Part shown: positions 23,487 through 47,176 of the stretch, in pieces
Numbering within the stretch: the stretch's first letter is position 1
How the letters are laid out: the number at the start of each line of letters is the position of its first letter
Assembly (NCBI RefSeq): GCF_900156805.1
Contig: NZ_FTOQ01000001.1
Coordinates: 248,001-312,000, forward strand
Reading direction: 5' to 3'
DNA length: 64,000 bases
Origin: Roseivivax lentus
Lineage (GTDB): Bacteria; Pseudomonadota; Alphaproteobacteria; Rhodobacterales; Rhodobacteraceae
Position numbers and translations under genes: made by a program
Notes under the pieces: generated by a model
What the model was told of the DNA's origin: nothing
The model's database searches: none
What the model saw: the letters and a program-made list of their open reading frames with translations, nothing else

Positions 23487-23732
23487 CTGGGATCCTCACT
23501 CGATAAAAGGCGCCCGGGGCGCCACCGGGATATCCGGTCCGGCGCAGACCTTGGCGCGGAAGAGTTTCGAAGTGGCAAAGAAAGCCTAGACAATTTTCCT
23601 AGAACGCGGATTTTTCCCCTCCACCCGGCGCCCCGCGCCTCTTCGCGCGTCCCGAAGGTCCGGGCGCGGTTGTTCTCGGGCCCAAAACGGATAAGGCTTC
23701 GCCCGATCCCGCCGCCATCCGGAGCCACAGCC

Positions 23733-25766: not shown

Positions 25767-25887
25767 ACCGGCTCCATTCTAATGCCATCTTTGACTGTCA
25801 GGCGCGCGTGGATTGGATAAGGTCCGCCCCGAAGGACACCCGGGCCGAGGTCCGGGCACGGGGCAGGGGCGCAGGGCACGGGGCGAG

Positions 25888-26733
25888 ATGATCGAACAGG
25901 CGCCGCAGATCAGCGTGATCGTACCCGCCTCGAACGAGGCCGGGCAGATCGGCGCGTGCCTGACCGCCCTGTCGGTGTCGGACTGGACCGCCGAGGCCGC
26001 GCCCGAGATCATCGTCGTCGACAACGGCTCGCAGGATGACACGGCAGGGGTCGCCCGAAGCTTCGAGGCGGCGTTCGCGGCGCGCGGCTGGAATCTGCGG
26101 GTCATCACCGCGCCCAAAGCCGGCAAGCCGTCTGCGCTCAATGCGGGCGATGCGGCGGCGCGGGGGCTGGCGCGGATGTATCTCGATGCGGACGTGACCG
26201 TCTCGCCCGCCCTTTTGGCGCAGGTGACAGCGGCGCTCGCCGCGCCCGAGCCGCGCTTCGTCACCGGAACGCTGGCGATCACCGCCCCGCACAGCGCGGT
26301 CAGCCGCGCCTATGCGCGGGTCTGGGCGCAGGTCCCGTTCATGGCCGATTGCGTGCCCGGCTGCGGGCTGTTTGCGGTCAATGCCGTCGGCCGCCTGCGG
26401 TGGAACGCCTTTCCGCAGCTCATTTCCGACGATACCTTCGTGCGGCTGCATTTCGCGCCACATGAACGGCACGCCGTGCCTGCCCGCTATGACTGGCCGG
26501 TGGTCGCGGGCTTCGGCAACCTCGTGAAGGTACGCGCGCGGCAGGACCGTGGCGTGACCGAGATCAGGCAGGTGCATCCCGACCTTGCGCGCAACGATGA
26601 AGGCCGGCCCTTCCCGCTGTCGCGGAAGCTCGGCCTGGCCGCCCGCGATCCCCTTGGCTTCGCGGTCTATTCGGGCGTGGCGCTGGCCGCGCGTCTGCGG
26701 CCCGCCGCCGATGGCTGGAGCCGGGGACGATGA
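25888..26733 (+). CDS. Glycosyltransferase family 2
   Basis: A 281-residue GT-A enzyme. QISVIVPASNEAGQIGACLTAL is the nucleotide-sugar binding start, IIVVDNGSQDDT follows, and MYLDADVTVSP supplies the Asp-x-Asp metal motif. The acceptor region is around PGCGLFAVNAVGRL. The ATG at 25888 was chosen because the GT2 fold starts within ten residues of it; an in-frame ATG at 25813 adds a low-complexity leader. It overlaps the flippase gene by 4 bases. It has no transmembrane segments except a possible amphipathic C-terminus. Sugar unknown. Confidence 0.9.
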   Translation: MIEQAPQISVIVPASNEAGQIGACLTALSVSDWTAEAAPEIIVVDNGSQDDTAGVARSFEAAFAARGWNLRVITAPKAGKPSALNAGDAAARGLARMYLDADVTVSPALLAQVTAALAAPEPRFVTGTLAITAPHSAVSRAYARVWAQVPFMADCVPGCGLFAVNAVGRLRWNAFPQLISDDTFVRLHFAPHERHAVPARYDWPVVAGFGNLVKVRARQDRGVTEIRQVHPDLARNDEGRPFPLSRKLGLAARDPLGFAVYSGVALAARLRPAADGWSRGR

Positions 26734-28097
26734 GCGTCTTCGGCCTCACGCGGTTCCGCGGCGCCTCGCTGGGCGCGCGGGCGGTCCGTTCGTCGCTCTG
26801 GTCGACCGGGGCCTTCGCCGCGAGCCAGCTGCTCCGCCTCGGCTCGAACCTCATCCTGACACGGCTTCTGTTCCCCGAGGCCTTCGGCCTGATGGCGCTT
26901 GTCGCGGTCATCATCCAGGGCCTCACGAATTTCTCCGATACCGGCGTCATGCAGGCGGTGATGAGCCACAAGCGCGGCGAGGACCCGCGCTTTCTGAACA
27001 CCGCCTTCACCATTCAGGCGATCCGGGGCGTGCTGCTCTGGGTCTTCGCCTGCCTGCTCGCCTGGCCGCTGTCGCTATTCTACAACGCCCCGCAGCTGAT
27101 CCAGATCCTGCCCGCCGCGGCGCTCAGCCTGATCGTGATGGGCGTCAACCCGATGCGGGTCGCGACGGCGCATCGGCATCTGCTGCTCGGTCGGGTGTCG
27201 CTGCTGGATATCCTGTCGCAGACGCTGGGCGTCCTCATTGCCATCGCGCTTGCATGGTGGATGCAATCGGTCTGGGCGCTGGTGATTTCGGGGGTGCTGG
27301 CCGCAATCATCAACGTGGCCTTCAACTGGGCGTTCCTGCCCGGCCATCCCGACCGGCTGCAATGGGACCGCGCGGCGGCGCGCGAGCTGACATCCTTCGG
27401 CAAGTGGATCTTCCTGTCGACCATCGCGGGCTTCTTCGTCAGCCAGGGCGACCGCATCCTGATCGGCCGCTTCCTGAGCCTCGGGGCGTTCGGCGTCTAC
27501 AATATCGGCTATTTCCTCGCCTCCTTCCCCAACATGCTGGGCCGCATGGTGGCGGGCAAGGTGCTGATCCCGATCTACCGCGAGGCGCCCCCGGGCGAAA
27601 GCCGGGCGAATTTCCTGAAGCTGCGGCGCATGCGGATGGTGGTGACCGCGACGCTTCTGGCGATCATCGCCGTGCTGGGGATGGCGGGTTTGTGGCTTGT
27701 TGAGCTGCTTTACGACGAACGCTACCGCGATGCGGGTCCGGTGATCGTGCTTCTGGCGGTGATGTGGATCCCGCAGATCATCGCGCTGACCTACGATCAG
27801 GCGGCCCTTGCGGTGGGCGACAGCCGCAACTTCTTCGTGCTGGCGCTGTTTCGTGCAGTGACGCTTCTGGGCTGCGTCTATCTCGGGCTCGAGATGGCGG
27901 GGCTCCTGGGGGCGATCATCGGGCAGGGCATGGCGGGGCTTCTGTCCTATCCCGTGGTGGTCTGGCTGTCGCGGAAATCGGGCGCCTGGGATCCTCTGCA
28001 CGATGCGCTTTTCGCGATGCTGGGCCTCGCCGTCACTGCCGTGCTGTTCACGGCGCACCGCGCCGATATCGTGGCGCTCGCGGCGGGCGCCCTGTGA
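26730..28097 (+). CDS. Oligosaccharide flippase (Wzx/MOP superfamily)
   Basis: A 455-residue membrane protein with about twelve transmembrane segments. The N-terminus (RSSLWSTGAFAASQLLRLGSNLILTRLLFPEAFGLMALV) is the conserved start of the lipopolysaccharide/EPS flippases related to WzxC. Motifs TGVMQAVM, GDRILIGRFLSLGAFGVYNIGYFLASFPN and AGLWLVELLYDERYRDAGPVI follow. It moves undecaprenyl-linked repeat units across the inner membrane, supplying the Wzy-like polymerase at 51.6-53.0 kb. It is coupled by ATGA overlap with the GT2 upstream; the PKS gene starts 111 bases later. Confidence 0.93.
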   Translation: MSVFGLTRFRGASLGARAVRSSLWSTGAFAASQLLRLGSNLILTRLLFPEAFGLMALVAVIIQGLTNFSDTGVMQAVMSHKRGEDPRFLNTAFTIQAIRGVLLWVFACLLAWPLSLFYNAPQLIQILPAAALSLIVMGVNPMRVATAHRHLLLGRVSLLDILSQTLGVLIAIALAWWMQSVWALVISGVLAAIINVAFNWAFLPGHPDRLQWDRAAARELTSFGKWIFLSTIAGFFVSQGDRILIGRFLSLGAFGVYNIGYFLASFPNMLGRMVAGKVLIPIYREAPPGESRANFLKLRRMRMVVTATLLAIIAVLGMAGLWLVELLYDERYRDAGPVIVLLAVMWIPQIIALTYDQAALAVGDSRNFFVLALFRAVTLLGCVYLGLEMAGLLGAIIGQGMAGLLSYPVVVWLSRKSGAWDPLHDALFAMLGLAVTAVLFTAHRADIVALAAGAL

Positions 28098-28208: not shown

Positions 28209-31200
28209 ATGACACGACCTGACCAGGGTCCGGATTCGTCCTATTCCGACATTGCCATTGTCGGGATGGCCGCGCATTTGCCGGGCGCAGAGACGATTGC
28301 CCAATATTGGGACAATCTGCGCCGGGGTGTATCCTCCATCGCGCGGCTGAGCGAAGCGGAGCTTCTGGAGGCAGGCGTGCCGCCGGGGCTCTTGCGCCGC
28401 AAGGATTACGTGCCCTATGCCGCGCGTCTCGACGGGTTCGAGATGTTCGATGCGGAGTTCTTCGGCTTCTCCCCGAAAGAGGCGGCGATCCTCGACCCGC
28501 AACACCGCCGCTTCCTCGAGGTGGCGTGGGAGGCGATGGAGAATGCCGGCCACGTCCCGCAGACCTTCCCGGGCGCGGTGGGCGTTTTCGCGGGCTGCGG
28601 CATGGGCAGCTATTTCTATTTCAATCTCTGCTCCAACAGCGACCTCGTGGACAGCACGGGCATGTTCCTGCTGCGCCATACCGGCAACGACAAGGATTTC
28701 CTGACCACGCGGGCGAGCCACATTTTCGACCTCAAGGGCCCGTCGCTGTCGCTGCAGACGGCCTGCTCCACCTCGCTCGTGGCGGTGCATTACGCGGCGC
28801 AGTCGCTGCTGAACGGCGAATGCGACATGGCGCTGGCGGGCGGCGTGACGATCGAGCTGCCGCAGGGCCAGGGCTATGTCTTCAAGGAGAACGAGATCCT
28901 GTCGCCCGACGGCGCATGCCATGCCTTCGATCATCGCGCGCAGGGCACGGTCTTTGGCTCCGGCGCGGGCGTCGTGGTGCTGCGGCGCCTCGCCGATGCC
29001 ATCGCGGATGGCGATCATATCTGGGCGGTCATCAAGGGCAGCGCGGTCAACAACGACGGCGCCGACAAGGCGGGCTACCTCGCGCCGTCCGTGGGCGGAC
29101 AGGCCGCCGCCGTGGCCGAGGCGCAGGCCATCGCGAACACGCCCGCGGACACGATCGATTACGTCGAATGCCACGGCACCGGCACCTATCTGGGCGATCC
29201 GATCGAGGTCTCCGCCCTGACCGCGGCTTTCCGCGAGACCACGGAGGCCGAAGGCTTCTGCCGCATCGGGTCGGTAAAGACGAATATCGGCCATCTCGAC
29301 ACGGCGGCGGGCGCGGCGAGCCTCATCAAGACCGCGCTCGCGCTCAAACACGGGCAGATGCCGCCCAGCCTCGGCTATGAGGCGCCCAACCCCGCCATCG
29401 ATTTCGAGACCTCGCCGTTTCGCGTGAACGACAGGCTGCGCGACTGGCCGCGCCGCGATCATCCGCGCCGGGCCGGGGTCAATTCGCTGGGTGTGGGCGG
29501 CACCAACGCGCATGTGGTGCTGCAGGAGGCGCCGGAACGTGCCGCCTCCGAGACACCGGAATTTCCGTTCCAGATCCTGACGCTCTCGGCGCGGTGCAAG
29601 GCCGCGCTCGACGGCAATACGGCCCGGCTCGCGGCGCATCTGCGCAGTCATCCCGACCAGCCGCTGGCCGACGCGGCCTATACGCTGCGGACGGGCCGCG
29701 CGGAATTCGCCGAGCGCCGCATCGTCGTGGCCGAAACCCATGCGGAGGCCGCGGCTCTACTGGAGAAGGGCGACCGCTACCGCGTGCACAGCCACAAGGC
29801 GCTGACCGCTCCGGACGTGGCCTTTCTCTTTCCCGGCGGCGGCGCGCAATATCCGCAGATGGCGCGCGGTCTCTACGAGACCGAGCCGGTCTTCGCCGAC
29901 TGGATGGATCGCGGCCTCGATCACCTCGCGACCCTGACGGCGGAGGATCCGCGCGCGGCGTGGCTCGCCTCCGGTCCCGAGGCCGAGCAGCGCCTGCGCC
30001 AGCCCTCCGTGCAGCTGCCGCTCATTCTGATCACCGAGGTGGCGCTGGCGCGGCTCTGGGAGAGCTGGGGCGTGACCCCGGCCGCGCTCATGGGGCATTC
30101 CATGGGCGAGAACACCGCGGCCTGCATCGCGGGGGTCCTCGGCTTAGAAGACGCCATAGGTCTGGTGCATCTGCGCGGCACGCTGTTCGATTCCGTTCCC
30201 CGCGGCGGCATGTTGTCGGTCGCCATGTCCGAGGCCGCGCTCCTGCCGCATCTGGGCGAGGGGCTGGATCTCGCCGCGGTCAATGCGGCGCAATTGTCCG
30301 TCGCGACCGGCCCCGATGACGCGCTCGACGCGCTGGAGACCCGGCTGAAGGCGCAAGGCGTCGAATGCCAGCGCATCGGCATCAATGTGGCCGCCCATTC
30401 CCGGATGCTGGAGCCGATCCTGCCGGCCTTCCGAGCATATCTCGCGGGTCTCGACCTGAAGCCGCCGCAGATTCCCATCGTCTCCAACCGCTCGGGCGAC
30501 TGGCTGACCGACGCGGAGGCGACGAGCCCCGATTACTGGGCCGATCACCTGCGCAACACGGTGCGCTTTGCCGACGGGATCGCCACGCTCGGCGCGCCGG
30601 AAAACCGCGTTCTGCTCGAGGTCGGGCCGGGCCATGCCCTTTCGACGCTGGCACGCCAGCAGCCGCAGATCGGAGCGAACCGCGTGCTGACCGCCCTGCG
30701 CCACCCGAACGATGCCATCGCCGACGACCGCTATTTCCACGAGGCGCTGGGCCGTCTCTGGGCGCTGGGCGTCGCGGTCGACTGGGACCAGGTCTGGGGC
30801 GAGGCGCGCCGCAACCGCGTGCCGCTGCCGACCTACGCCTTCCAGCACGCGCCCTATTTCATCGAACCGGCGACCGGCAGGGCTGATACCTCGGCGCGCT
30901 ACCCCGCGCGGCGCGACGACATGCGCGCCTGGGGCACCGTTCCGGTCTGGCGTCCGCGCGCCTCCGAGCCGGCGGTGGATATCGACCACGATCCCGCGGC
31001 GCTGCCCACCGAGACCTGGCTCGTCTTCGCCGACGATGCCGGCCTGTCGGAGCAGGCGCTCGCGCCGCTGAGACGTGCCGGACACCGGGTCGTCGAGGTC
31101 CGCCCGGGCGACATCTTCGCGCGGGCGTCGGAGACCGCCTACCGCATCGCGCCGGAGCGCGGGCGGGAAGGCTACGACCTGCTTCTGGCCGATCTCGCAG

Positions 31201-34200
31201 CGCGCGGTCTTCTGCCCAGCCGCATCGCGCATTTCTGGGGGGTGACGGCGGATGAAAGCCATCGGCCGGGGTCGAGCTTTTTCCATCGACTGCAGGAACA
31301 GGGCTTCTATTCGCTGCTGTTTCTCGCCCAGGCGCTGGTCGATGAGGGGCTGACCCACGTTCATGTCGACGTCATCACCAATGGCGCTGCGCGGGTGCGG
31401 GACGAGGCGCTGCCGCATCCGGTGAAGGCCACCATCGCCGGGCCCGTCCGGGTGATTCCGCGCGAGGCCGAGGGGCTGAGCATGGCCACGCTCGATATCG
31501 TGCTGCCCGTGCCGGACGACGCGCCGTTCTGGCGCCCGGGCAAGGCCCGGCACACCCGGCAGGAGGCCTTCGCGGCGCTCGCCCGGCAGGTCACCGACGA
31601 ATTGATCTCGCCACCCGGGGGGCGCGAAGCCGCGATCCGCGACGGTCGGCGATACGCGCGCGGGCTTATCGAGGCGCCGCTGCCGCCGCAGGCGGAGACG
31701 CCGCTTTCGGGCACGATCCTGATGACGGGCGGTTTCGGCGGCATCTGCCGCACGTTCGGCCTCGCTGCCGCCGCGCATGGCGCGAAGCTGATCCTCGTGT
31801 CGCGGACCGAGCTTCCACCCCGCGCCGACTGGGCCGAATACAGCCGGCGCCACGCGCCGCAGGACCCGGTCTGCCGGGCCATCGCGCATGTCGCGGCACT
31901 GGAGGCGGCGGGTGCGGAGGTGATGGTCGCCACCGCCGATGTCTGCAACGAGGACGCCATGCGGCGCATCCGGGACGCCGCCGAGGACTGCTTCGGGCCG
32001 ATCACCGGCGTGATCCACGCGGCGGGCCGTCTGTCGGATCAGCCCTTCCTCGCGCTGAGCCCGGCGGATGTGGAGGAAATCTTCACCCCGAAACTGCACG
32101 GCACCGACGTGATCGACCGGCTCTTTTCCGGAGGTCGCGCGCAATGGATCGCGCATTTCTCGTCGGTCTCCACGATGGCGGCAGCGGCGGGGCAGCTCGA
32201 TTACGTGGCGGCCAACGAATACCTCAACGCGCTGGCCGAGGCGCGGGCGGACGATGCCACCCGGACGGTCGCGATCAACTGGGGCATCTGGGCCGAGGCC
32301 GGCATGGCCGCCGATGCGCTGGCGGCGCGCACCGGCACGCTCGAGCATTCCCCCGAAGAGCCCGCATCGCATCCGCTGCTCGACACGATGCGCTTCGATG
32401 CCGAGGGGCGGCGGGTCTTCGAGACGCAGCTGTCGACCGCCGATTGGGTGATCGACGAGCACCGCACGCGCGACGGCCTCGCGCTGCTGCCGGGGACCGC
32501 GTCGGTGACGCTTGCCGCGCATGCGCTGTCCGAGGCGGGCGAGGCCGGCGCCTTCGTGATCCGCGATCTCGCCTTCCTGCGGCCCTTCACCGTGCCCGAA
32601 GAGGGCAGCCGCCGCCTGACCACCCGGCTCGAGCGCAGCGATGCGGGCTACACGTTCGAACTTCTCTGCGAGGCCCGCGCCGAGGGGCGCACGGGCCGCA
32701 CGCGCTTTGCCGAGGCGCAGATCGACCTGCGCGCCCGGGGGCCTGCCCCGCGCATCGACCTGCCCGCGATCCGCGCCCGTCTCGGCGCGCCCGAGACCGC
32801 GCCCACGGGCCAGACCCTGACCACCGGGCAGGAGGCGCATCTCGCGTTCGGCCCGCGCTGGCGGGTGCTGACCGCCCGGGCGCTGTCCGCCGATGAGGGG
32901 CTGGCCGATCTGACGCTGGCGGATGCGGCTGTCGGGGACGCGTGTCTCGTGCATCCCGCGCTTCTCGATATCGCGACCGGCTGGGCGATGGAGCTTATTC
33001 CCGGCTACGCGCCCGATCACCTGTGGGTGCCTCTGTCCTATGTGCGCGTGACGGTCTGGGGGCCGCTTCCGGAGCGTATCGTCAGCTGGGTCCGGCCCGC
33101 GCAGGACGGCCATGCCACCACCGAAAGCGCGAGTTTCGATGTCACGCTCGCCACGCCGGACGGCACCGTGGTGATGGAGATCGCGGGCTTTGCCATCCGG
33201 CGGCTGGGCGATGCCGCGCAATTGCGCCGCCCGGCGCGGCTGAGCGCTGCGGAGATCGAAACCGATCAGGCCGGCGCCGGTGCGCCGCTATCCCCGGGCG
33301 AGGAGATGCTGCAGCACAACCTGAGCCAGGGCATCCGGCCCGAGGAAGGCGCCGAGGCCTTTGCGCGTGCCATGGCGCAAGCCCGGCCCGTCGTCGCGGT
33401 CAGCCCCGTTGCCATCGCCGCGCTGCGGGCGCAGGCCGAAATTGCGGCGCGGCCCGCGACCCAGATGCAGGCCTTCGAACGGCCCGTGATGGACGAGGAT
33501 TTCGCCGCGCCGGAGACCGATATCGAAAAGCGGCTCGCGGGGTTCTGGGAGGACCTTCTCGGCGTGCGCAACGTGGGCGTCGATGACAGCTTCTTCGATC
33601 TGGGTGGGCATTCGCTGATCGCGGTGCGGCTCTTCTCGATGGTCAAGAAGACCTACCGCGTGGATTTCCCGATCTCGGTGCTGTTCGAAGCGCCGACGAT
33701 CCGCGCCTGCGCCGCGCTGATCGCCGAAAAGGCGGGGATTTCCGACACCGCCTCCGGCACCGGCGAGGCGCCCGCACCGGCCCGGCCCGAGCGGCGCTTC
33801 TCGCATCTCGTGCCGATGCACGAGGGCGAACCGGGGCGGAAGGCGCCGTTCTTCCTCGTCGCGGGCATGTTCGGCAACGTTCTGAACCTGCGTCACCTCG
33901 CGCTTCTGATGGGCCGCGACCGGCCCTTCTACGGGCTGCAGGCCAAGGGCCTTTACGGGGACGAAGAGCCGCATCGCAGCATCGGCGAGGCCGCGCGCGA
34001 CTACATCGCCGAGCTGAAGCAGGTGCAGCCCGACGGGCCCTATCACCTGGGCGGGTTTTCGGGCGGCGGCATCATCGCCTTCGAGATGGCGCGGCAGCTC
34101 ACCGCGCTGGGCGACACGGTCGCGCTGGTGGCGCTGCTCGACACGCCCTTGCCGCAGAAGCGTCCGCTCCTGCCCGTCGACCGCGCGGTGATCCAGCTGC

Positions 34201-34664
34201 AGGAGCTGCGCCGCAAAGGCGTGGGCTACCCGTTCATCTGGGCGCGCAATCGCCTCCGCTGGGAGATCGAGAAGCGGCGCGCGAAAGCGGCGACGGGGGC
34301 CCCGGAAAGCTTCCACAACACCGAGATCGAGGCGGCCTTCCTCGGCGCCATCGCCGCTTACGAGGTGGCCTCCTATGACGGGCGCGTGGTCCTCTTCCGC
34401 CCGCCCCTGCGCGAGAAATGGCGCGTCGCGGGCGGACGGCTGGTGAACGACGAACGCGCTTATCTCAGCGACGACAACGATTGGGGCGGGCACCTGACGG
34501 ACCTGACCGTGATCGAGGTGCCGGGCGATCACGATTCGATGGTGCTGGAGCCCAATGTGCGCGTGCTCGCGGCAGCGCTGAAACAGGCCATGCGGGATGC
34601 CGGCCTGCCGCCCGGCGAAGGCGGCGCGGTGGTGCCCTTCGTGCGCACGGAGGCGGCGGAATGA
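28209..34664 (+). CDS. Modular type I polyketide synthase: KS-AT-KR-DH-ACP-TE
   Basis: A 2151-residue single-module PKS. KS, about residues 12-445: active Cys186 in TACSTSL, His322 in HGTGT, His362 in NIGHLDTAAG. AT, about 538-860: Ser631 in GHSMGE; the specificity motif reads VAAHS, not the malonyl HAFHS or methylmalonyl YASHS, so the extender is unclear. KR, about 1165-1365: TGGFGGI at 1173-1179 and Tyr1332 in YVAAN. DH, about 1390-1690: His1418 in DEHRTRDGLALLPG and Asp1587 in HPALLD. ACP: Ser1802 in GGHSL. TE, about 1850-2140: Ser1951 in GFSGGG, His2108 in GDHDS. All catalytic residues appear intact; no ER. It starts with a KS, so it needs an upstream loading module, which the NRPS gene of the same operon can supply. 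Confidence 0.95.
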   Translation: MTRPDQGPDSSYSDIAIVGMAAHLPGAETIAQYWDNLRRGVSSIARLSEAELLEAGVPPGLLRRKDYVPYAARLDGFEMFDAEFFGFSPKEAAILDPQHRRFLEVAWEAMENAGHVPQTFPGAVGVFAGCGMGSYFYFNLCSNSDLVDSTGMFLLRHTGNDKDFLTTRASHIFDLKGPSLSLQTACSTSLVAVHYAAQSLLNGECDMALAGGVTIELPQGQGYVFKENEILSPDGACHAFDHRAQGTVFGSGAGVVVLRRLADAIADGDHIWAVIKGSAVNNDGADKAGYLAPSVGGQAAAVAEAQAIANTPADTIDYVECHGTGTYLGDPIEVSALTAAFRETTEAEGFCRIGSVKTNIGHLDTAAGAASLIKTALALKHGQMPPSLGYEAPNPAIDFETSPFRVNDRLRDWPRRDHPRRAGVNSLGVGGTNAHVVLQEAPERAASETPEFPFQILTLSARCKAALDGNTARLAAHLRSHPDQPLADAAYTLRTGRAEFAERRIVVAETHAEAAALLEKGDRYRVHSHKALTAPDVAFLFPGGGAQYPQMARGLYETEPVFADWMDRGLDHLATLTAEDPRAAWLASGPEAEQRLRQPSVQLPLILITEVALARLWESWGVTPAALMGHSMGENTAACIAGVLGLEDAIGLVHLRGTLFDSVPRGGMLSVAMSEAALLPHLGEGLDLAAVNAAQLSVATGPDDALDALETRLKAQGVECQRIGINVAAHSRMLEPILPAFRAYLAGLDLKPPQIPIVSNRSGDWLTDAEATSPDYWADHLRNTVRFADGIATLGAPENRVLLEVGPGHALSTLARQQPQIGANRVLTALRHPNDAIADDRYFHEALGRLWALGVAVDWDQVWGEARRNRVPLPTYAFQHAPYFIEPATGRADTSARYPARRDDMRAWGTVPVWRPRASEPAVDIDHDPAALPTETWLVFADDAGLSEQALAPLRRAGHRVVEVRPGDIFARASETAYRIAPERGREGYDLLLADLAARGLLPSRIAHFWGVTADESHRPGSSFFHRLQEQGFYSLLFLAQALVDEGLTHVHVDVITNGAARVRDEALPHPVKATIAGPVRVIPREAEGLSMATLDIVLPVPDDAPFWRPGKARHTRQEAFAALARQVTDELISPPGGREAAIRDGRRYARGLIEAPLPPQAETPLSGTILMTGGFGGICRTFGLAAAAHGAKLILVSRTELPPRADWAEYSRRHAPQDPVCRAIAHVAALEAAGAEVMVATADVCNEDAMRRIRDAAEDCFGPITGVIHAAGRLSDQPFLALSPADVEEIFTPKLHGTDVIDRLFSGGRAQWIAHFSSVSTMAAAAGQLDYVAANEYLNALAEARADDATRTVAINWGIWAEAGMAADALAARTGTLEHSPEEPASHPLLDTMRFDAEGRRVFETQLSTADWVIDEHRTRDGLALLPGTASVTLAAHALSEAGEAGAFVIRDLAFLRPFTVPEEGSRRLTTRLERSDAGYTFELLCEARAEGRTGRTRFAEAQIDLRARGPAPRIDLPAIRARLGAPETAPTGQTLTTGQEAHLAFGPRWRVLTARALSADEGLADLTLADAAVGDACLVHPALLDIATGWAMELIPGYAPDHLWVPLSYVRVTVWGPLPERIVSWVRPAQDGHATTESASFDVTLATPDGTVVMEIAGFAIRRLGDAAQLRRPARLSAAEIETDQAGAGAPLSPGEEMLQHNLSQGIRPEEGAEAFARAMAQARPVVAVSPVAIAALRAQAEIAARPATQMQAFERPVMDEDFAAPETDIEKRLAGFWEDLLGVRNVGVDDSFFDLGGHSLIAVRLFSMVKKTYRVDFPISVLFEAPTIRACAALIAEKAGISDTASGTGEAPAPARPERRFSHLVPMHEGEPGRKAPFFLVAGMFGNVLNLRHLALLMGRDRPFYGLQAKGLYGDEEPHRSIGEAARDYIAELKQVQPDGPYHLGGFSGGGIIAFEMARQLTALGDTVALVALLDTPLPQKRPLLPVDRAVIQLQELRRKGVGYPFIWARNRLRWEIEKRRAKAATGAPESFHNTEIEAAFLGAIAAYEVASYDGRVVLFRPPLREKWRVAGGRLVNDERAYLSDDNDWGGHLTDLTVIEVPGDHDSMVLEPNVRVLAAALKQAMRDAGLPPGEGGAVVPFVRTEAAE

Positions 34665-35668
34665 GCGGGCGCGATGTCAGGCTCCTCGCGGTTCTTCTGA
34701 ACTGGCGCACCCCGGCGATGACGATCCGGGCGGCGGAGGCGCTGGCGCGCGCGCTCGACGGTCTCGATGCGGAGATCGTGATCGTCGACAATGACAGCGG
34801 CGACGGGTCCGAAGCCGCCCTGCGCGCCCATGTCGCCGCGTCGGACTGGCCGGTGCCCGCGCGCGTCCTGCAATCGGGGCAGAACGGCGGCTTCGCCTTC
34901 GGCAACAATGCGGGCATCCGGGCGGGCCGCAGCGACGGGGCGCGGCCCGACTACGTCTACGTCCTCAACTCCGACGCCTTTCCCGCCGCCGATGCCGTGC
35001 GCGTGCTGATCGACCATCTCGAGGCGCATCCCCGCGACGGCTTCGCCGGATCGCAGCTCTGGTCCGAGGACATGCCGATCCACATCTCGGCCTTCCGGTT
35101 TCCCACCATCGCCTCGGAATTCGAGGGCACCGCGCGGACGGGGATCATCACCCGCGCACTGCACCGGTACCGGGTGCCCTTCATGGACCTCACGCGGACG
35201 CGGCCCGTCGACTGGCTTGCCGGGGCGTCGATGCTCATGCGGCAGGACATGCTGGATCAGGTCGGGCTGCTGGACGATGGCTTCTTCCTCTATTTCGAGG
35301 AGACGGAGCATTTCTTCCGCGCCCGCCGCAAGGGCTGGACCGCGACCTACCTCGTCGAAAGCCGGGTGGAGCATCTGGGGTCGGTCTCGACCGGCATGAA
35401 GCAATGGACAGAGGTGCCGGATTACTGGTTCGACAGCCGCTGGCGGTACTTCACCCTGTCCCATGGCCGCGCCTATGCGGCATGCGCGACGCTGGCACGG
35501 GTGGCCGGGCTGTCGCTCTGGAAGCTGCGGCGTCTCATGGGCGCGCCCCGGCTCGATCCGCCGGGTACGTTGCGCCGGCTCCTGCGGCACGATCTGCGCG
35601 CCCTCTTCCAGACCACCCGGCGGCGCGACACGCGCGTCAGCCGGCCCAGATCGTCCCCTGCGGAGTAA
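34661..35668 (+). CDS. Glycosyltransferase family 2 within the PKS-NRPS operon
   Basis: A 335-residue enzyme starting at the ATG that overlaps the PKS stop (ATGA). VRLLAVLLNWRTPAMT, IVIVDNDSGDGSE and QNGGFAFGNNAGI are the rhamnosyl/mannosyl-type GT2 (WcaA/RfbN-like) blocks. VLNSDAFP replaces DXD, GASMLMRQDMLDQVGLLDDGFFLYFEE matches the family's acceptor loop with E-E, and the C-terminus is basic. It lies 6 bases before the NRPS gene, so it is translated with the assembly line. This places sugar transfer next to NRPS-PKS product formation, but its acceptor could equally be the EPS repeat unit. Confidence 0.9.
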   Translation: MSGRDVRLLAVLLNWRTPAMTIRAAEALARALDGLDAEIVIVDNDSGDGSEAALRAHVAASDWPVPARVLQSGQNGGFAFGNNAGIRAGRSDGARPDYVYVLNSDAFPAADAVRVLIDHLEAHPRDGFAGSQLWSEDMPIHISAFRFPTIASEFEGTARTGIITRALHRYRVPFMDLTRTRPVDWLAGASMLMRQDMLDQVGLLDDGFFLYFEETEHFFRARRKGWTATYLVESRVEHLGSVSTGMKQWTEVPDYWFDSRWRYFTLSHGRAYAACATLARVAGLSLWKLRRLMGAPRLDPPGTLRRLLRHDLRALFQTTRRRDTRVSRPRSSPAE

Positions 35669-35674
35669 GACGCG

Positions 35675-38600
35675 ATGTTTTCAGCGATCCTGATCGGCAA
35701 TGACCGCTTGACGCGTGAAGCGGGCGACAAGCTGTTGCGCGCGGGCCACCGGATCACCGCCTGCGTCAGCCGCGACGCCGATATCCGTGGCTGGGCCGAG
35801 GCGGCGGGCCTGCCGGTGATCGCGCCCGGCGCGGGACTGGCCGACCGGCTTGCGGGTCATGCCGCGGACTGGGTGCTGAGCGTGGCCAATCTCGACCTCT
35901 TGCCGTCCGAGGTGCTGGCGCTGGGCGCGCGGGGCGGGGTGAATTTCCACGACGGTCCGCTGCCGCGCTATGCCGGGCTCAACGCGCCGGTCTGGGCGCT
36001 TATGGCGGGCGAGACGCGGCACGGCATCACCTGGCACATGATGGAGGAAGGGGTGGATCGCGGCGACATCCTCGTCGCCCGGTCGGTCGAGATCGGGCCG
36101 GAGGATACCGCGCTCACGCTCAACATGAAGTGCTTCGCCGCGGCGCTCGATTCCTTCGACGCGGTGATCGAGGCGCTTTCGGCGGGCGCGCCCGACCGTT
36201 TCGCCCAGCCCGACGAGGCGCGCAGCTATTTCGGCCTTGTCGCGCGCCCGGCCCATCACGGCGTTCTGGACTTTGGCCAGCCCGCGGCGACGCTGGCGCG
36301 CTTGGTGCGCGCGCTCGATCATGGCGGCTACTGGAACCCGCTGGCGCTGCCCAAGATCATGACCGGGGCCGGGCTGTTCGCGGTCGGACGTGCGGAGCCT
36401 GCCGACGGGACGGGGGCGCCAGGCACGGTCCTTGCCGGCGAGGGCGACAGCCTGACCCTGGCCTGCGCGGAGGGCGCATTGCGCCTGTCTGGGCTGACGC
36501 CGCTTCCGGGAACGGCGCCTGTGCTGCCGCGGGCCGGGGACATCCTGCCGCCACCGCCCGCGGACGACCTCTCCGATCTGGCGCGCGCCGAACGGGGCTG
36601 GCGGGATCGGCTGGAGGCCTATTCCCCGGCAAATCTGCCGGGTTTCGGGCCGCCCTCGGGCGACATGGACGCACTTCCCCTGAGCGATCTGGCCGATCCG
36701 GCTGGCGCAATGGCGCTTCTGGCTGGGCGGCTCGCCCCCGACGGCGCGGCCCATATCGCCTGCGCCACGCCCGAGGTAACGGCCCGCGCGAAGACCGGCC
36801 TGTCGCTGCCGTGGCTGCCGGTCGCGGCAGGAACCGGGGGCCGCGCGTCCGAGGCCCGCGCGGCATTCCATGACCGCCTTGCCGCGGCCCGCGCAGCCGG
36901 GCCGTTCGCCCGCGACCTGCCTGCCCGGATGCCCGAGCTTGCGGGTTTCGAGACACCCGCCCTGGCGATCAGCGATGGCGCGGGGCCGGTGCCCGGGGCG
37001 CTCCTGACGCTGGAGATCGGTCCGGAGGCGCGGCTCCACTACGACACCGGCGCGATCCCAGCGGATATGGCGGCACTTCTGGCCGACCGTCTGCGCGCGC
37101 TCGACGCCCATGACGGCCCCGCCGCGCAGGCGCCGCTCATGGACGCGGCGGAGCGCCGCCTGACGCTCGAGACGTGGAACGCGACCGACAGGCCGCTGAC
37201 CGATACCACGATGATCGACCGCTTCGAGGCGCAGGTGGATGCGACGCCGGACGCGACCGCGCTCGTCTTCGAAGACCATGCGATGAGTTTTCGCGACCTC
37301 GACGACTACGCCAACCGCATCGCGCATCTTCTGTGCGACATGGGCGCGGGTCCGGACAGCGTCGTCGCACTCCATCTTGCCCGCGGACCCCGGCTGATGG
37401 CGGCGGCCTTCGGTGTGCTGAAGGCGGGGGCCGCCTATCTGCCGCTCGATCCGGCCTATCCGGCGGATCGGCAGGCGCATTACCTCGCCGATAGCGGTGC
37501 CGCGATCATCGTCACCGAAAGCACCATCGCCCGGACGCTGCCGCGGCACAAGGCGGCGGAGCTGTGGCTCGACAGCGACACGCGGCTCTTCTCGGCCTCG
37601 CCGGCGCGGCCCGGCATCGCACCCGACCCGGGGCATCTGGCCTACCTGATCTACACCTCCGGTTCGACCGGCAAGCCCAAGGGCGTGATGATCGAACACG
37701 CCCAGGTCGCCAATTTCTTCACCGCGATGGACGCGGTCGTGCCGGACCCGGGCGGCACATGGCTCGCGGTCACCTCGCTCAATTTCGATATCTCGGTGCT
37801 CGAGCTCTTCTACGCGGTCTCGCGCGGCTTCAAGGTGGTCATGGCGTCCGAGAACGTGGCCTCGACGGTCTCCTCCGGGCCGCGCCGCACCTCGGGGATG
37901 AACCTGTCGCTGTATTACTGGGGCAACGATGACGGCACCGGGCGCGACAAGTACCGCACGTTGCTGGAAGGCGCGAAATTCGCCGATGCGCATGGATTCT
38001 GCGCGGTCTGGACGCCCGAGCGGCATTTCCATGCCTTCGGCGGACCCTATCCGAACCCGTCGGTCACCGGCGCCGCGGTCGCGGGTGTGACCAGCCGCAT
38101 CGGCGTGCGGGCGGGGTCCTGCGTGGCGCCCCTGCACCATCCCGCCCGCGTGGCCGAGGAATGGGCGGTGATCGACAACCTGACCGAGGGGCGCGCGGGC
38201 CTCGCCATCGCCAGCGGTTGGCAGCCCGACGATTTCGTGCTGCGCCCCGAGAATGCGCCACCCGACAACAAGGCCGCGATGCTGACCGCCATCGACCAGA
38301 TAAGGCGTCTCTGGCGCGGCGAGGCGGTGGGATTCCCGCGTGCCGATGGCAGCCTGCACGAGGTGGTGACGCAGCCGCGCCCGGTCTCGCCGGAACTGCC
38401 GCTCTGGGTCACCACGGCGGGCAATCCCGAGACCTGGCGCGAAGCGGGGCGGCTGGGCGCCAACGTGCTGACCCATCTTCTGGGCCAGAGCATCGAGGAG
38501 GTCGGCGAGAAGATCGCGATCTACCGCGCGGCCAGGGCCGAGGCCGGGCTCGATCCCGAGGCGGGCGAGGTCTGCCTGATGCTGCACACCTACCTGGCCG

Positions 38601-40297
38601 AGACCCGCGATGCCGCCCGCGAGACCGCGCGGGAGCCGATGAAGGATTACCTGCGCTCGGCAGCGGGGCTGATCAAGCAATATGCCTGGGCCTTCCCGGC
38701 CTTCAAGAAACCCAAGGGCGTCGACAACCCGCACCAGATCGACCTCGGCAGTCTCGAGGCGGAGGAACTGGAAGGGATCCTCGATTTCGCCTTCGAGCGG
38801 TATTTCAACGATTCGGGCCTTTTCGGAACGATCGAGGACGCCGTGGCGCGCATCGCGGATCTGAAGGCCATCGGCGTGAAGGAAGTGGCCTGCCTCATCG
38901 ATTACGGCATCGCACCGGACGTGGTGCTGGACGGGCTGAAGCCCCTGGCCGAGGTCGTGGCACAGGTCTCCGGCGAGGACGTGCCGGATGAGCGCGACTT
39001 CTCGGTCGCGGCGCAGATCCGGCGCCACGGCGCCACACATCTGCAATGCACGCCGTCGCTGATGCGGCTGATGCTGGCCGATGACGGCGCGCGCGCCGCG
39101 TTGCGGCAGCTCGATCACATCTTCCTCGGTGGCGAGGCGCTGCCCGGACCGCTGGTCGATGCGCTGGGCGCGGTCACGCGGGCCAAGGTGCAGAACATGT
39201 ACGGGCCGACCGAGACGACGATCTGGTCGGCGGTGGGCCCCGCGCAATCCGTGCCGGGGATCGTGCCCATCGGCGCGCCCATCGCCAATACGGCGCTCTA
39301 CGTTCTGGACGAGGCGGGGGCGCCCTGCGCCATCGGGCAACCGGGCGCGCTCTGGATCGGCGGGAAGGGCGTCGCGCGCGGCTACTGGCAGCGCGACGCG
39401 CTGACCGCGGACCGGTTCCGCCCCGATCCCTTCGCCGGTTCGGGCTCGGGCGCCGGCCCCGCGCGCATGTATTGCACCGGCGACAGCGTGATGCGGCGCG
39501 CGGATGGGAGGCTCGAGTTCCTCGGGCGCACGGACGGGCAGGTCAAGTTGCGCGGCATGCGGATCGAGCTGGGCGAGGTGGAGGCCCGGATCGAGGCGCT
39601 CGACGGTGTGACCCAGGCGGCGGCATTGGTGCGCGCGGACCGGCTTCTGGCCTATGTCACCGGCACGCCCGGCGACGAGGCCGCGATGAAGGCGGCGCTT
39701 GCGGCGCGTCTGCCTGCCCACATGGTGCCCGCGCGGATCGTGACGCTCGATACGCTGCCGCTGACGCCCAACAAGAAGGTCGACCGCACCGCCTTGCCCG
39801 ACCCGGCGGCCCCGGCCCCGCAGAGCGCGGTGCCCGCCGCACCGGCGGTCAGCGCAGCGCCGGCCCCCGAGGTGACCCGGCAAGGCCAGCCCGGCGCGTC
39901 GCCCGCGCTGCAGGCCGAACTGGCGGACCTCTGGGCGGTAACGCTGGGGGTGGGGCAGGTCGCGGCGGCGGATAATTTCTTCGCCCTCGGCGGCCATTCC
40001 CTGCTGGCGGTGGAACTGCACCGCGCGATCCGCGACGGTATACGCGCGAAAGGCTTCTCGATCACCGATGTCTTCCGCTTCCCGACGCTTGGCGCGATGG
40101 CGCAGCGCGTGGCGGAGTTGCGGGGCGATGCGCCCGTGCGCGCCGCGCAAGTCCGTGCGAAACCCGCCGCATCCCCGCCGCCCGACGCCCCCCCGGCGCC
40201 GATGGCCGAGGCCGCGCCGATCCGCAACCCGCGGGCCGATGCCCGCCGCGCCGCCATGGCCAAACGGCGCGAGATGCGCGCCCGCGCACAGGTCTGA
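35675..40297 (+). CDS. Hybrid NRPS initiation protein: formyltransferase - A domain with inserted luciferase-like monooxygenase - PCP
   Basis: A 1540-residue protein. Residues 1-300 are a formyltransferase of the Fmt/ArnA/LgrA type with Asn90, His92 (NFHDGPLPRYAG) and Asp128 (VDRGD). Residues 300-500 resemble the tail of a condensation domain without HHxxxDG. An adenylation domain starts near 500: YTSGSTG at 660-666, FDIS at 704-707. It is interrupted at about 741-1095 by an FMN-dependent luciferase-like monooxygenase (MupA/Atu3671 type: WTPERHFHAFGG, GLAIASGWQPDDF, LWVTTAGN). It resumes with LQCTPSLM, NMYGPTETTIW (1174-1184), GRTDGQVKLRGMRIELGEVE and NKKVDR. A PCP has Ser1442 in GGHSL. The specificity residues read D-I-L-Q-F-G-M-I-W-K, close to the glycine code. 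A basic Ala/Pro tail ends the protein. Confidence 0.93.
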   Translation: MFSAILIGNDRLTREAGDKLLRAGHRITACVSRDADIRGWAEAAGLPVIAPGAGLADRLAGHAADWVLSVANLDLLPSEVLALGARGGVNFHDGPLPRYAGLNAPVWALMAGETRHGITWHMMEEGVDRGDILVARSVEIGPEDTALTLNMKCFAAALDSFDAVIEALSAGAPDRFAQPDEARSYFGLVARPAHHGVLDFGQPAATLARLVRALDHGGYWNPLALPKIMTGAGLFAVGRAEPADGTGAPGTVLAGEGDSLTLACAEGALRLSGLTPLPGTAPVLPRAGDILPPPPADDLSDLARAERGWRDRLEAYSPANLPGFGPPSGDMDALPLSDLADPAGAMALLAGRLAPDGAAHIACATPEVTARAKTGLSLPWLPVAAGTGGRASEARAAFHDRLAAARAAGPFARDLPARMPELAGFETPALAISDGAGPVPGALLTLEIGPEARLHYDTGAIPADMAALLADRLRALDAHDGPAAQAPLMDAAERRLTLETWNATDRPLTDTTMIDRFEAQVDATPDATALVFEDHAMSFRDLDDYANRIAHLLCDMGAGPDSVVALHLARGPRLMAAAFGVLKAGAAYLPLDPAYPADRQAHYLADSGAAIIVTESTIARTLPRHKAAELWLDSDTRLFSASPARPGIAPDPGHLAYLIYTSGSTGKPKGVMIEHAQVANFFTAMDAVVPDPGGTWLAVTSLNFDISVLELFYAVSRGFKVVMASENVASTVSSGPRRTSGMNLSLYYWGNDDGTGRDKYRTLLEGAKFADAHGFCAVWTPERHFHAFGGPYPNPSVTGAAVAGVTSRIGVRAGSCVAPLHHPARVAEEWAVIDNLTEGRAGLAIASGWQPDDFVLRPENAPPDNKAAMLTAIDQIRRLWRGEAVGFPRADGSLHEVVTQPRPVSPELPLWVTTAGNPETWREAGRLGANVLTHLLGQSIEEVGEKIAIYRAARAEAGLDPEAGEVCLMLHTYLAETRDAARETAREPMKDYLRSAAGLIKQYAWAFPAFKKPKGVDNPHQIDLGSLEAEELEGILDFAFERYFNDSGLFGTIEDAVARIADLKAIGVKEVACLIDYGIAPDVVLDGLKPLAEVVAQVSGEDVPDERDFSVAAQIRRHGATHLQCTPSLMRLMLADDGARAALRQLDHIFLGGEALPGPLVDALGAVTRAKVQNMYGPTETTIWSAVGPAQSVPGIVPIGAPIANTALYVLDEAGAPCAIGQPGALWIGGKGVARGYWQRDALTADRFRPDPFAGSGSGAGPARMYCTGDSVMRRADGRLEFLGRTDGQVKLRGMRIELGEVEARIEALDGVTQAAALVRADRLLAYVTGTPGDEAAMKAALAARLPAHMVPARIVTLDTLPLTPNKKVDRTALPDPAAPAPQSAVPAAPAVSAAPAPEVTRQGQPGASPALQAELADLWAVTLGVGQVAAADNFFALGGHSLLAVELHRAIRDGIRAKGFSITDVFRFPTLGAMAQRVAELRGDAPVRAAQVRAKPAASPPPDAPPAPMAEAAPIRNPRADARRAAMAKRREMRARAQV

Positions 40298-40301
40298 CCG
40301 C

Positions 40302-40976
40302 ATGTCCTCCAGCCAGCTTCAGAGAATGATCCGCGGCCTGGGCGATGCCTGGCCCGACGGCGTGGCCGTCGCCGTGGTCGATCCCGAAGAGGCGACGGAA
40401 CCGCTTTTCCCCATCGAGGAGGCGGCGGTGCGCCGGGCGGTGGCCGGGCGGCGGGCGGAATTCACCGCGGGCCGGCAGGCCGCGCGGCAGGCGCTGGCGA
40501 TGCTGGGCTATCCGCCGATCGCCATCCCCATGGCCGAGGATCGCGCGCCCGTCTGGCCCCAGGGCATCGTCGGGTCGCTGTCGCATTGCCCGGCGGTCTG
40601 CATCGCCGTGGTGGCGGATGCGAGCCGCATCGCCAGCCTCGGCGTCGATATCGAGCCCTTCGATCCCCTGCCCGAGGACATCGTGCACGAGATCGGCCGG
40701 GAGGACGAGATCGCGGGTATCGGCCCGGACCGCCGCCTTGCGGCCCGGCAGCTCTTTTCCGCCAAGGAAGCGGCCTACAAGGCGCAATACCCGCTGACAC
40801 GCACACTCTTCGGCTTCGAGGGGCTGCGCTACGATCAGGTCCGGCGCACGCTGCGGTTCGCCCGGCCGGTGCCGCCCTTCGCCAAGGGCGATCCGATCCC
40901 GGTCAGCCAATGGACCGGCGACGGGCTGTGCCTGTCGCTCTCGGTGCTCCACACGGGACCGGGGGGCACGTCATGA
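40302..40976 (+). CDS. 4'-phosphopantetheinyl transferase, Sfp/EntD type
   Basis: A 224-residue enzyme that activates carrier proteins by moving phosphopantetheine from CoA to their Ser. Motifs: AGRQAARQAL, WPQGIVGSLSHC (P1), LGVDIEP with the Mg-binding Asp and Glu, and FSAKEAAYKAQYP (P3). It starts 4 bases after the NRPS stop, so it serves Ser1442 of the NRPS and Ser1802 of the PKS. Its presence makes the operon self-sufficient. The start at 40302 follows the NRPS stop; the longer in-frame ORF upstream lies inside the NRPS gene. Confidence 0.95.
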   Translation: MSSSQLQRMIRGLGDAWPDGVAVAVVDPEEATEPLFPIEEAAVRRAVAGRRAEFTAGRQAARQALAMLGYPPIAIPMAEDRAPVWPQGIVGSLSHCPAVCIAVVADASRIASLGVDIEPFDPLPEDIVHEIGREDEIAGIGPDRRLAARQLFSAKEAAYKAQYPLTRTLFGFEGLRYDQVRRTLRFARPVPPFAKGDPIPVSQWTGDGLCLSLSVLHTGPGGTS

Positions 40977-41149: not shown

Positions 41150-42475
41150 ATGGTTCAATTTCAAAGCCGCGAAGAGCTGTTCGCCGCGATCCGGCGGCGC
41201 TTGCCGATCATGCTCCTGATCGTTCTGATCGGCTGCATCGCCGCGGTCTATGTCGCGATGAACAAGACCAAGCTCTACCGCGCCACGGCAGCGGTCCAGA
41301 TCGAAAGCCCGCGCATCCCCGACGCCGATAGCGGGCGGCGCATGAGCGAGGAATCGGTGCGCCGGATCGAGCTGATCCGCCAGCGCATGACCTCGACCAT
41401 GTCGCTGTTGCAGGTCTCCGAGGAGATCGGCCTGTTCCAGCCGCGCGAACCGGGCGGCCGCATGCCCAGCCGCGACGAGCGGCTGATCGTGCTGCGCAAC
41501 GCGGTCTCCGTGCGGGCGGAAAGCGGCAATTTCGCCTTCTCGCCCACCGTCGCCCCCTTCGCGATCATCATCGAAGTGGTCTGGGAAGAGCCCGAGGCCG
41601 CCGCGGCGCTGGCCAACGGGATCATGACCGCGGCCATCGCGGAATCGCGCGCGCGCAACCTGCAGCGGGCGCAGGACGCGCTGACCTTCTTCGACGAGGA
41701 AGCCGCCGAGATCGACTCGCGCATCATCGCCGTCGAGGCCGAGATCGCCGAGTTCCGCCGCGCCAATGACGAGGCGCTGCCGGGCTCCATCGCCGCCCTG
41801 CGGTCGCAGCTCGCCGCGCTCGAGGTGTCGGAGTTCGAGATCGACCGCCAGCTGGCCGAGCTGCAGGTCAATTCGGATCGTCTGCGCGAGGCCGACCTCG
41901 CCCGCCGCACCGAGCTTCTGGAGGACCAGAAACGCCTCATCGTGGCGCGCGAGACCGAGATCGAGGCCGCCATCGCCCGCGCGCCCGAGGTCGCGCGCGA
42001 TCTCGGCGTTCTCGAACGCCAGCTCGCCGCTTTGCAGGAGCAATACAGCATCGTCGTGCAACAGCGCGGCGATGCCGAGTTCGAGCAGGTGATGGAGGTG
42101 CAGGACCAGTCCGAACGGCTCGAGATCCTCGAACAGGCGGTGCCGCCGGAATATTCCTTCTCGCGCAGCCGCAAATCCATCGCGATGCTGGGCGCGCTTT
42201 TCAGCGTGATCGTGGCACTCGGCGCCGGCTACCTGCTGGAGCTGTTCAACCCGGCCATCCGCAGCGCCGCCCAGCTGGAACGGCAATTGGGCATCAAGCC
42301 GGTGATCTCCGTGCCGGTGGTGCAGCCGCGCCGGACGCCCTTCGACCGCTGGGGTCGCCGTGGCGGGCTTCTGGCGCTGATCCTCGGCGGTCTCGCACTG
42401 CTGGCGGCGGGTCTCGGGCGGTTCGTCGATCCGAACCTCTGGTCGCGGTTCCTGCCCCGGCGCGCGGGGTCCTGA
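41150..42475 (+). CDS. Wzz/GumC-like polysaccharide chain-length determinant
   Basis: A 441-residue inner-membrane protein. TM1 (LPIMLLIVLIGCIAAVYVAM) is near residues 18-38, with a Wzz domain after it (YRATAAVQIESPRIPD). A long coiled coil occupies about residues 170-320 (ALTFFDEEAAEIDSRIIAVEAE and so on), and TM2 is near residues 340-365 followed by IRSAAQLERQLGIKPVISVPVV. A third hydrophobic stretch (GLLALILGGLALLAAGL) sits in the tail. There is no Walker motif; the kinase domain is encoded separately and convergently at 42537-44600. GGGAG lies 8 bases before the ATG. Confidence 0.92.
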   Translation: MVQFQSREELFAAIRRRLPIMLLIVLIGCIAAVYVAMNKTKLYRATAAVQIESPRIPDADSGRRMSEESVRRIELIRQRMTSTMSLLQVSEEIGLFQPREPGGRMPSRDERLIVLRNAVSVRAESGNFAFSPTVAPFAIIIEVVWEEPEAAAALANGIMTAAIAESRARNLQRAQDALTFFDEEAAEIDSRIIAVEAEIAEFRRANDEALPGSIAALRSQLAALEVSEFEIDRQLAELQVNSDRLREADLARRTELLEDQKRLIVARETEIEAAIARAPEVARDLGVLERQLAALQEQYSIVVQQRGDAEFEQVMEVQDQSERLEILEQAVPPEYSFSRSRKSIAMLGALFSVIVALGAGYLLELFNPAIRSAAQLERQLGIKPVISVPVVQPRRTPFDRWGRRGGLLALILGGLALLAAGLGRFVDPNLWSRFLPRRAGS

Positions 42476-44600: not shown

Positions 44601-44708
44601 CGGGACCCCTCCCGTATCCGGGCGATCTGCGGTGCTCGACAAATGAATTCCCGAACGATCATGTCTGAGCTTTCTGCCCTAAGTGGATGCATGAATGCTT
44701 AATGCCCT

Positions 44709-46988: not shown

Positions 46989-47176
46989 GTCCGCCCTCTT
47001 GTTGCCGCGCCGCGCCCCAGGAACGCGCGCGGGTCCTGCCAGATGGGCCGGGACAGGCCCGGTTTGGCAAGCGCCGGGGCCGGATCGGTGCCCGGCTGAC
47101 GCAACTGGGTCGCACTTTGCGTGCCGCGCGCAGGCAGGTCTCCCCGACGCCGATCCGGCCTGCTAGGAGCGGGTCC

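Follow-up and report, generated by a model that had tools for sequence, protein, structure and literature searches.

Between positions 28,209 and 40,976 of a 64,000-nucleotide stretch of Roseivivax lentus DNA (contig NZ_FTOQ01000001.1, positions 248,001 to 312,000; hereafter the window), four consecutive genes encode a type I polyketide synthase (PKS), a family 2 glycosyltransferase (GT2), a non-ribosomal peptide synthetase (NRPS) and a 4'-phosphopantetheinyl transferase (PPTase), and this cluster belongs to a polysaccharide locus, the link to exopolysaccharide (EPS) genes being far above chance. We give about an even chance to the reading that the four genes form a dedicated assembly line making a small acyl unit for the EPS of the surrounding locus. 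The basis of this reading was taken from sequence (domains, catalytic residues, a glycine-type pocket, the insertion site of a monooxygenase, co-inheritance and EPS linkage); from it we infer substrate identity, hydroxylation, a single turn and transfer to a glycan. PKS and GT2 overlap by 4 bases, gaps of 6 and 4 bases separate GT2 from NRPS and NRPS from PPTase, and by its long frames and its conservation in many genomes the quartet is far beyond chance. Genes, order and spacing (by coordinates, gene calls and Pfam) agreed with a preliminary description of the same DNA, as did the PKS domain order (ketosynthase (KS), acyltransferase (AT), ketoreductase (KR), dehydratase (DH), acyl carrier protein (ACP), thioesterase (TE); same order in Pfam) and the lack of a condensation domain in the NRPS (none in the Pfam scan at E 0.001).

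Domains and predicted chemistry

The NRPS had been described as a protein of formyltransferase (F), adenylation (A) and peptidyl carrier protein (PCP) domains; these were recovered, but an embedded luciferase-like flavin mononucleotide (FMN) monooxygenase (MOX) had been overlooked (MupA/Atu3671-type, 350 amino acids (aa), scoring 473 bits with TIGR04020, whose cut-off is 244), giving F-A(MOX)-A-PCP. The insert splits the A domain between motifs A4 (residues 704–710) and A5 (residues 1174–1180). Among 90 aligned NRPS the Asn/His/Asp triad of the formyltransferase was present in every sequence and the PCP serine in 89, with a gap in the other; the nine readable pocket residues read DILQxGM(I/V)W in 90/90, where x varies and V replaces I in two. 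Compared code to code, this pocket is close to the glycine code DILQLGLIWK. The A-domain pocket thus appears to fit glycine, and the glycine assignment made earlier gains support from its retention in all 90 proteins.

Structure models were consistent with these assignments. The F-domain model (predicted local distance difference test score (pLDDT) 93) matched ArnA and Met-tRNA formyltransferase best in the PDB, and a viral fold library contributed only two more matches, both to formyltransferases at E 0.001. The AlphaFold model of the A-MOX-A part (28 sequences; mean pLDDT 80, predicted template modelling score 0.54) had DhbF (5u89) as its top fold match (E 6e-45, template modelling (TM) score 0.40 for the whole model, insert included, the low value arising because the insert spoils the global superposition), and module 1 of DhbF takes glycine. 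The insert itself matched the OX monooxygenase domain of PuwE (6ket, TMt 0.88). For the well-folded region between F and A (about residues 295–500), neither a Pfam family nor a half condensation domain was found above cut-off in ten proteins (that of the window and nine relatives). With PCP-to-KS docking in view, 14 NRPS tails were inspected, and these end in a basic stretch. An antisense open frame of 1540 codons lies opposite the NRPS (window:35681-40303, minus strand); it is probably a shadow of high-GC codon usage, and its identical length is coincidental.

The PKS was aligned with relatives from genome loci and plasmid records (84 sequences in all, that of the window included), and C186, H322, H362, S631, Y1332, N1336, H1418, D1587, S1802, S1951 and H2108 were each kept in 84/84, so that the catalytic residues checked in KS, AT, KR, ACP and TE of the extension module are intact throughout. 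The AT carries AAHS at the place of the methylmalonyl motif YASH, and a methylmalonyl extender was rejected on this reading. In the DH the histidine loop is longer by one residue, and DxATG stands in place of the usual motif, DxxxQ/H. No enoylreductase (ER) was found in the Pfam scan of the PKS. This bears on the proposal that the PKS, in the manner of RkpA, supplies the polysaccharide with a lipid anchor or carrier and not with a decoration: a link between monomodular PKS genes and capsular polysaccharide is known (rkpA), but RkpA needs an ER for its saturated chain, and here no saturated chain is expected, the loading NRPS has F and a glycine-type A domain, and the line ends in a TE. We rejected a lipid-anchor PKS on the absence of the ER and regard an RkpA-like role as very unlikely. 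Two further observations concern PKS genes elsewhere: in Rhizobium sp. BG6 (L014:11168-17685, minus strand) the PKS consists of two overlapping frames of 1586 and 770 aa and may be frame-shifted or misread, and in carrier genome G017 (C3 near 517815-521755) the PKS pieces lie in open frames of just 656 and 1078 aa.

In the proposed pathway the PPTase would arm PCP and ACP, the A domain would activate glycine and load it onto the PCP, and the F domain would N-formylate the glycyl-S-PCP. The embedded MOX would then hydroxylate the glycine alpha carbon to an N-formyl carbinolamide, a step assigned from two papers on MtaG/MelG-type domains (PMC10204066, PMC11342130). The KS would accept the chain for one extension with malonyl, and KR and probably DH would leave a 4-formamido-but-2-enoyl group (or its 4-hydroxy form) on the ACP. 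Finally, the TE would hand the acyl group on and not simply hydrolyse it, the acceptor being a hydroxyl or amine on a sugar, a glycan precursor or the GT2 product; delivery to the polysaccharide by TE or GT2 is suggested by the EPS linkage and by a condensation domain in a Deinococcus version of the PKS. The formylated 4-amino-2-butenoate predicted at first found no support, as that prediction ignored the embedded monooxygenase, with which the product is probably more oxidised.

Alternatively, the carbinolamide could collapse: the formamide would leave and glyoxylyl-S-PCP would prime the PKS, giving a 4-oxo-but-2-enoyl unit without nitrogen, formylation serving just to create the amide. According to PMC10204066 and PMC11342130, hydroxylated glycine does break up in myxothiazol/melithiazol synthesis while glyoxylate stays on the carrier; hydroxyglycine is, however, retained in solanimycin B (PMC10204066), and loss of the formyl group and the amine at every turn would be costly. 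We consider this collapse quite unlikely.

Co-inheritance of the four genes

Relatives were collected in a scan of species genomes, in which the best 80 of 585 confirmed relatives were kept. The PKS adjoined the NRPS in 80/80 of these loci, some of which are ended by contig edges; the GT2 lay between them on the same strand in 77/80, and the PPTase was downstream of the NRPS in 72/80. Over 67 loci the PKS and NRPS distance matrices agreed with r 0.91 (PKS-GT2 0.81, NRPS-GT2 0.76, PPTase pairs 0.45 to 0.65), values that partly reflect shared ancestry, which alone raises them. The cluster was found in 8/9 genomes of the window's genus (its own included) and in 39/100 genomes of the family at one per genus (its own included, one a fragment); in the class, 5/289 genomes passed E 1e-100, four of them in the window's family with the window's own among them. 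In 16 plasmid records at least 80% of the NRPS is present; A-MOX modules that lack an F domain have a wider distribution.

The family count was made with the monooxygenase piece as query, from which copies lacking a monooxygenase would escape. A piece of the PKS was therefore searched against 50 of the 61 monooxygenase-negative family genomes, where it detected one relative (genome G105), and against six control carriers, all of which were found. Separate conservation of the four genes, named in the preliminary description as a sign against it, was thus not seen: the single PKS relative among the 50 genomes belongs to a modified form of this very locus. The description of the cluster as one self-contained line is supported by the 80/80 adjacency and the PKS-NRPS correlation. 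That NRPS and PKS are unrelated enzymes in a common operon would suit two separate proteins in which the Pfam scan recognised no docking domains, but their constant co-occurrence and correlated distances (shared ancestry contributing), their joint alteration in G105 and their joint presence in Deinococcus make this extremely improbable; a chance operon was ruled out by the adjacency, the distance-matrix agreement and the PKS search of the negative genomes.

G105 (L113-L114, G105:C17:136000-170000) keeps the same polysaccharide locus with altered megasynthase genes. Its NRPS has no monooxygenase, an F triad of A/R/A, no PCP serine and the pocket DILQMGMIW; its PKS consists of two open frames split by one in-frame stop, in which the KS, AT and KR catalytic residues and the DH histidine are replaced, but the aspartate of the DH, the serine of the ACP and both the serine and the histidine of the TE remain. 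That both proteins are affected together agrees with a common pathway, and a decoration that the cell can do without would account for the persistence of the locus. The form, which comes from a single genome and keeps long frames despite the replaced active sites, could be a decay product or a reduced glycine-transfer system. No other such form occurred among 61 genomes searched, in which no genome of the same genus appeared, and the plasmid matches listed for the G105 PKS (20 of 39 records) were just ordinary relatives.

Polysaccharide locus and variant clusters

Features of the window are collected in the table below. Wzx/Wzy-type features of the locus comprise a flippase, several glycosyltransferases and a Wzz-like protein. 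Of the flanking genes proposed earlier, the flippase was confirmed (PF13440, 1.3e-50), the Wzz-like gene showed the expected similarity but weakly (22.7 bits, below the Pfam cut-off of 25.5), and no Wzy-like gene was identified within the window; a polytopic family with a weak Wzy signal occurs in 44/92 loci. Gene families in the 92 loci were called by mutual homology with a home-made caller that may make mistakes, and each family took its name from one or two of its members. One or more of six polysaccharide families occurred in 74/80 genome loci and in 60/63 of those of at least 24 kb. As a proximity control, two Pfam families were located in 38 carrier genomes (all 39 except the fragment): a flippase lay within 30 kb of the NRPS in 30/38 and a WecG gene in 34/38, against about 3% and 2% per genome, respectively, expected for genes placed at random in 4 Mb. 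The four WecG exceptions had no copy on the NRPS contig. The WecG family occurred in 38/38 carriers versus 9/50 non-carriers chosen for completeness from the 61 (Fisher 2e-16, not corrected for relatedness).

Features of the four-gene cluster, its domains and the surrounding locus (window positions; aa, amino acid residues)
Feature	Position	Strand	Evidence and remarks
Type I PKS, KS-AT-KR-DH-ACP-TE, 2151 aa	28209..34664	+	Pfam
KS domain, aa 14-390	28248..29378	+	PF00109/PF02801
AT domain, aa 537-832	29817..30704	+	PF00698; GHSMG; AAHS
KR domain, aa 1168-1363	31710..32297	+	PF08659; D1277 at LDD place, Y1332, N1336
DH domain, aa 1388-1672	32370..33224	+	PF21089/PF14765; H1418, D1587 kept
ACP, aa 1775-1838	33531..33722	+	PF00550
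Terminal TE, about aa 1905-2130	33921..34598	+	PF00975; S1951, H2108
GT2 glycosyltransferase	34661..35668	+	PF00535; ATG within 4-base overlap with PKS stop
NRPS, F-A(N)-MOX-A(C)-PCP and basic C-terminal tail, 1540 aa	35675..40297	+	Pfam, TIGR04020, alignment
Formyltransferase domain, about aa 1-290	35675..36544	+	PF00551; triad N90/H92/D128
Well-folded region between F and A, about aa 295-500, about 200 residues	36557..37174	+	pLDDT mostly >90
A domain, N part, up to motif A4 (FDISVLE, aa 704-710)	37181..37891	+	AMP-binding Pfam
Embedded FMN luciferase-like monooxygenase, aa 744-1094	37904..38956	+	TIGR04020
A domain, C part, A5 NMYGPTE (aa 1174-1180), pocket DILQFGMIW	38996..39796	+	Pfam, alignment
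PCP, Ser1442	39917..40111	+	PF00550
PPTase	40302..40976	+	PF17837/PF01648; ATG at 40302
Large protein, family 12 of locus	22719..25766	+	One RTX repeat match; weak GDSL-like signal in one relative; 38/92 loci
Second GT2	25813..26733	+	PF00535; 52/92 loci
Polysaccharide flippase	26730..28097	+	PF13440 1.3e-50; family in 51/92 loci
Wzz-like chain-length protein	41150..42475	+	PF02706 22.7 bits, under cut-off 25.5; family in 59/92 loci
ParA/CbiA-type ATPase protein, Wzc-like place in locus	42537..44642	-	PF01656; ParA-type family in 48/92 loci
Third GT2	44785..45789	-	PF13632/PF00535; 50/92 loci
GT4	45786..46988	-	PF13692/PF00534; family in 54/92 loci
WecG/TagA/CpsF glycosyltransferase	47117..47950	+	PF03808 4.2e-44; sole match in genome; WecG-type family in 45 loci

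Polysaccharide genes also stand beside copies outside the family. In plasmids of Shinella, Neorhizobium, Rhizobium and Aminobacter the PKS is inverted beside NRPS and PPTase, and polysaccharide genes accompany these Rhizobiaceae and Phyllobacteriaceae copies; in Methylobacterium bullatum a tandem NRPS and PKS lie near two GT4 genes and those of a UDP-sugar dehydrogenase, an aminotransferase and an epimerase. Two Hydrogenophaga loci (L055, L075) hold PKS, GT2, NRPS and PPTase, each with a WecG gene; in Hydrogenophaga pseudoflava (L075:4606-11089) the best PKS match stops at residue 1323, 1.8 kb separate its frame from the GT2, and this PKS is perhaps broken. Downstream in the same locus (L075:18735-24740) lies an A-PCP-C-A-PCP-TE protein. 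The Deinococcus actinosclerus plasmid (L127, CP029777.1:287354-312147) carries a related set among polysaccharide genes, with a separate formyltransferase gene (40% identity across 210 residues to the F domain in the window), an A-MOX-PCP protein whose pocket reads DILQLGMVW, and a PKS of the same domains in which a condensation domain (HHLAADA) replaces the TE. Condensation domains are the type of enzyme that joins a chain to a nucleophile. Tentatively, and somewhat short of an even chance, these versions may be grouped with those of Alphaproteobacteria as a class of polysaccharide systems (the two Hydrogenophaga loci and the Deinococcus included) in which a hybrid line (F, a glycine A domain that houses the monooxygenase, a single PKS module, release by TE or condensation domain) fixes a reactive C4-C5 formamido-acyl group on EPS.

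Several points weigh against an EPS-directed acyl line. Thioesterases often merely hydrolyse, and the order of KR ahead of DH, the longer DH loop and the DxATG motif make dehydration uncertain. The GT2 has moved within the locus in 2/80 loci and was not found in 1/80; none of the six EPS families was present in 6/80 (3/63 of loci of at least 24 kb). Eight of the 38 carriers have no flippase within 30 kb: six have none on the contig (one of them, G070, none anywhere) and in two it is far away. The priming sugar transferase (PF02397) matched at four places in the genome and at none in the window, the nearest on the contig being 21 kb past the window end. A-MOX modules that lack F turn up elsewhere too, for example on Streptomyces and Nostoc plasmids, and in Aliiroseovarius M344 (L013, NZ_CP081154.1:110504-150862) an NRPS of this kind is paired with an extended PKS whose end is C-A-PCP-TE, beside nitrous-oxide reductase (nos) and exosortase genes and with no clear EPS locus.

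The Aliiroseovarius version would also suit a small molecule secreted in free form (a signal, an antibiotic or a metallophore), for which location among EPS genes would be an operonic or regulatory convenience. Free acids or lactones are the usual products of hybrid lines that end in a TE, and PMC4337385 and PMC5014874 place the cluster under secondary metabolism. Against a free metabolite stand the flippase and WecG proximity, the distribution of WecG between carriers and non-carriers, the polysaccharide genes beside the Rhizobiaceae, Phyllobacteriaceae, Methylobacterium and Deinococcus copies and the WecG genes of both Hydrogenophaga loci; we hold it to be rather unlikely. If the product is instead a substituent of the EPS, efforts to find a free metabolite have been directed at the wrong fraction, and the genes offer polysaccharide chemistry a prediction to test. 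Assembly-line chemistry would then extend to slime coats, perhaps in the form of electrophilic or carbinolamide groups that could crosslink or bind.

Other genes of these loci were recorded in passing. Two families with weak SGNH/GDSL-like signals below cut-off (L016:23309-24247 with relatives in 35/92 loci; L065:18273-20828 with relatives in 38/92) are possible acyl-handling enzymes, and a Hint-domain protein is encoded at window:15047-16075 (PF13403, 5.6e-44).

Comparison with known systems

The cluster lies within slime-coat genes in many, often marine, bacteria, and its product is probably a short formylated, oxidised glycine-derived acid. If the EPS reading is right, the system joins assembly-line enzymology with surface glycans in a compact form, two megaenzymes with one turn each accounting for formylation, embedded oxidation and release. 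The closest sequence matches of the NRPS in the PDB were entries of LgrA (linear gramicidin), with which it shares an N-terminal formyltransferase (Asn-His-Asp), A and PCP domains and no preceding condensation domain; LgrA differs in having no monooxygenase, its A1 domain reportedly takes valine, and the chain here goes to a PKS. Conglobatin and oxazolomycin arise from a formylglycine starter passed to a PKS in large modular lines that give oxazoles and are not known to have an EPS link. RkpA and swf share with the present system a single-module PKS tied to surface polysaccharide; they have a different domain set and are not known to have an NRPS loader, which is present here.

For the embedded monooxygenase, the nearest parallels are MtaG and MelG (myxothiazol, melithiazol), whose domains hydroxylate the glycyl alpha carbon according to PMC10204066 and PMC11342130, one of which places the monooxygenase between A4 and A5. 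An FMN monooxygenase within a glycine-type A domain and the A4-A5 insertion are thus common to both; the MtaG/MelG module extends or ends a chain, whereas here it is a formylating starter. SolF (solanimycin) also has a monooxygenase in a glycine A domain, but inserted at A8-A9 (PMC10204066).

The four genes had been thought to match no described EPS system; they are in print as a roseobacter orphan cluster and are therefore not new: Collins et al. 2015 (PMC4337385) report them as conserved in 28/57 roseobacter genomes with an uncharacterised product, and the 2016 paper on Leisingera JC1 (PMC5014874) lists PKS, GT, NRPS and PPTase, the product not being identified; both cite Martens et al. The window holds the same PKS, GT, NRPS and PPTase together, and Leisingera JC1 (our locus L070) has the gene set and order of the window, its PKS ending at a contig edge. 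A region labelled NRPS-like/T1PKS, compared in PMC10608839 across four genomes including Aquicoccus porphyridii L1 8-17 (our L049), is probably the same cluster. The word exopolysaccharide has no occurrence in PMC4337385 or PMC5014874, and their accounts, in the portions available, mention no formyltransferase, monooxygenase, glycine pocket or polysaccharide locus; nor did the literature searched, where most subscription papers including Martens et al. 2007 were out of reach, describe an EPS link or a monooxygenase of the cluster. Thus, to a cluster that about two-fifths of the genera sampled in this large family carry, and with no known product in the literature examined, the present analysis adds, relative to the accessible text of these accounts, a sharper predicted chemistry (monooxygenase and glycine pocket) and evidence for a polysaccharide link.

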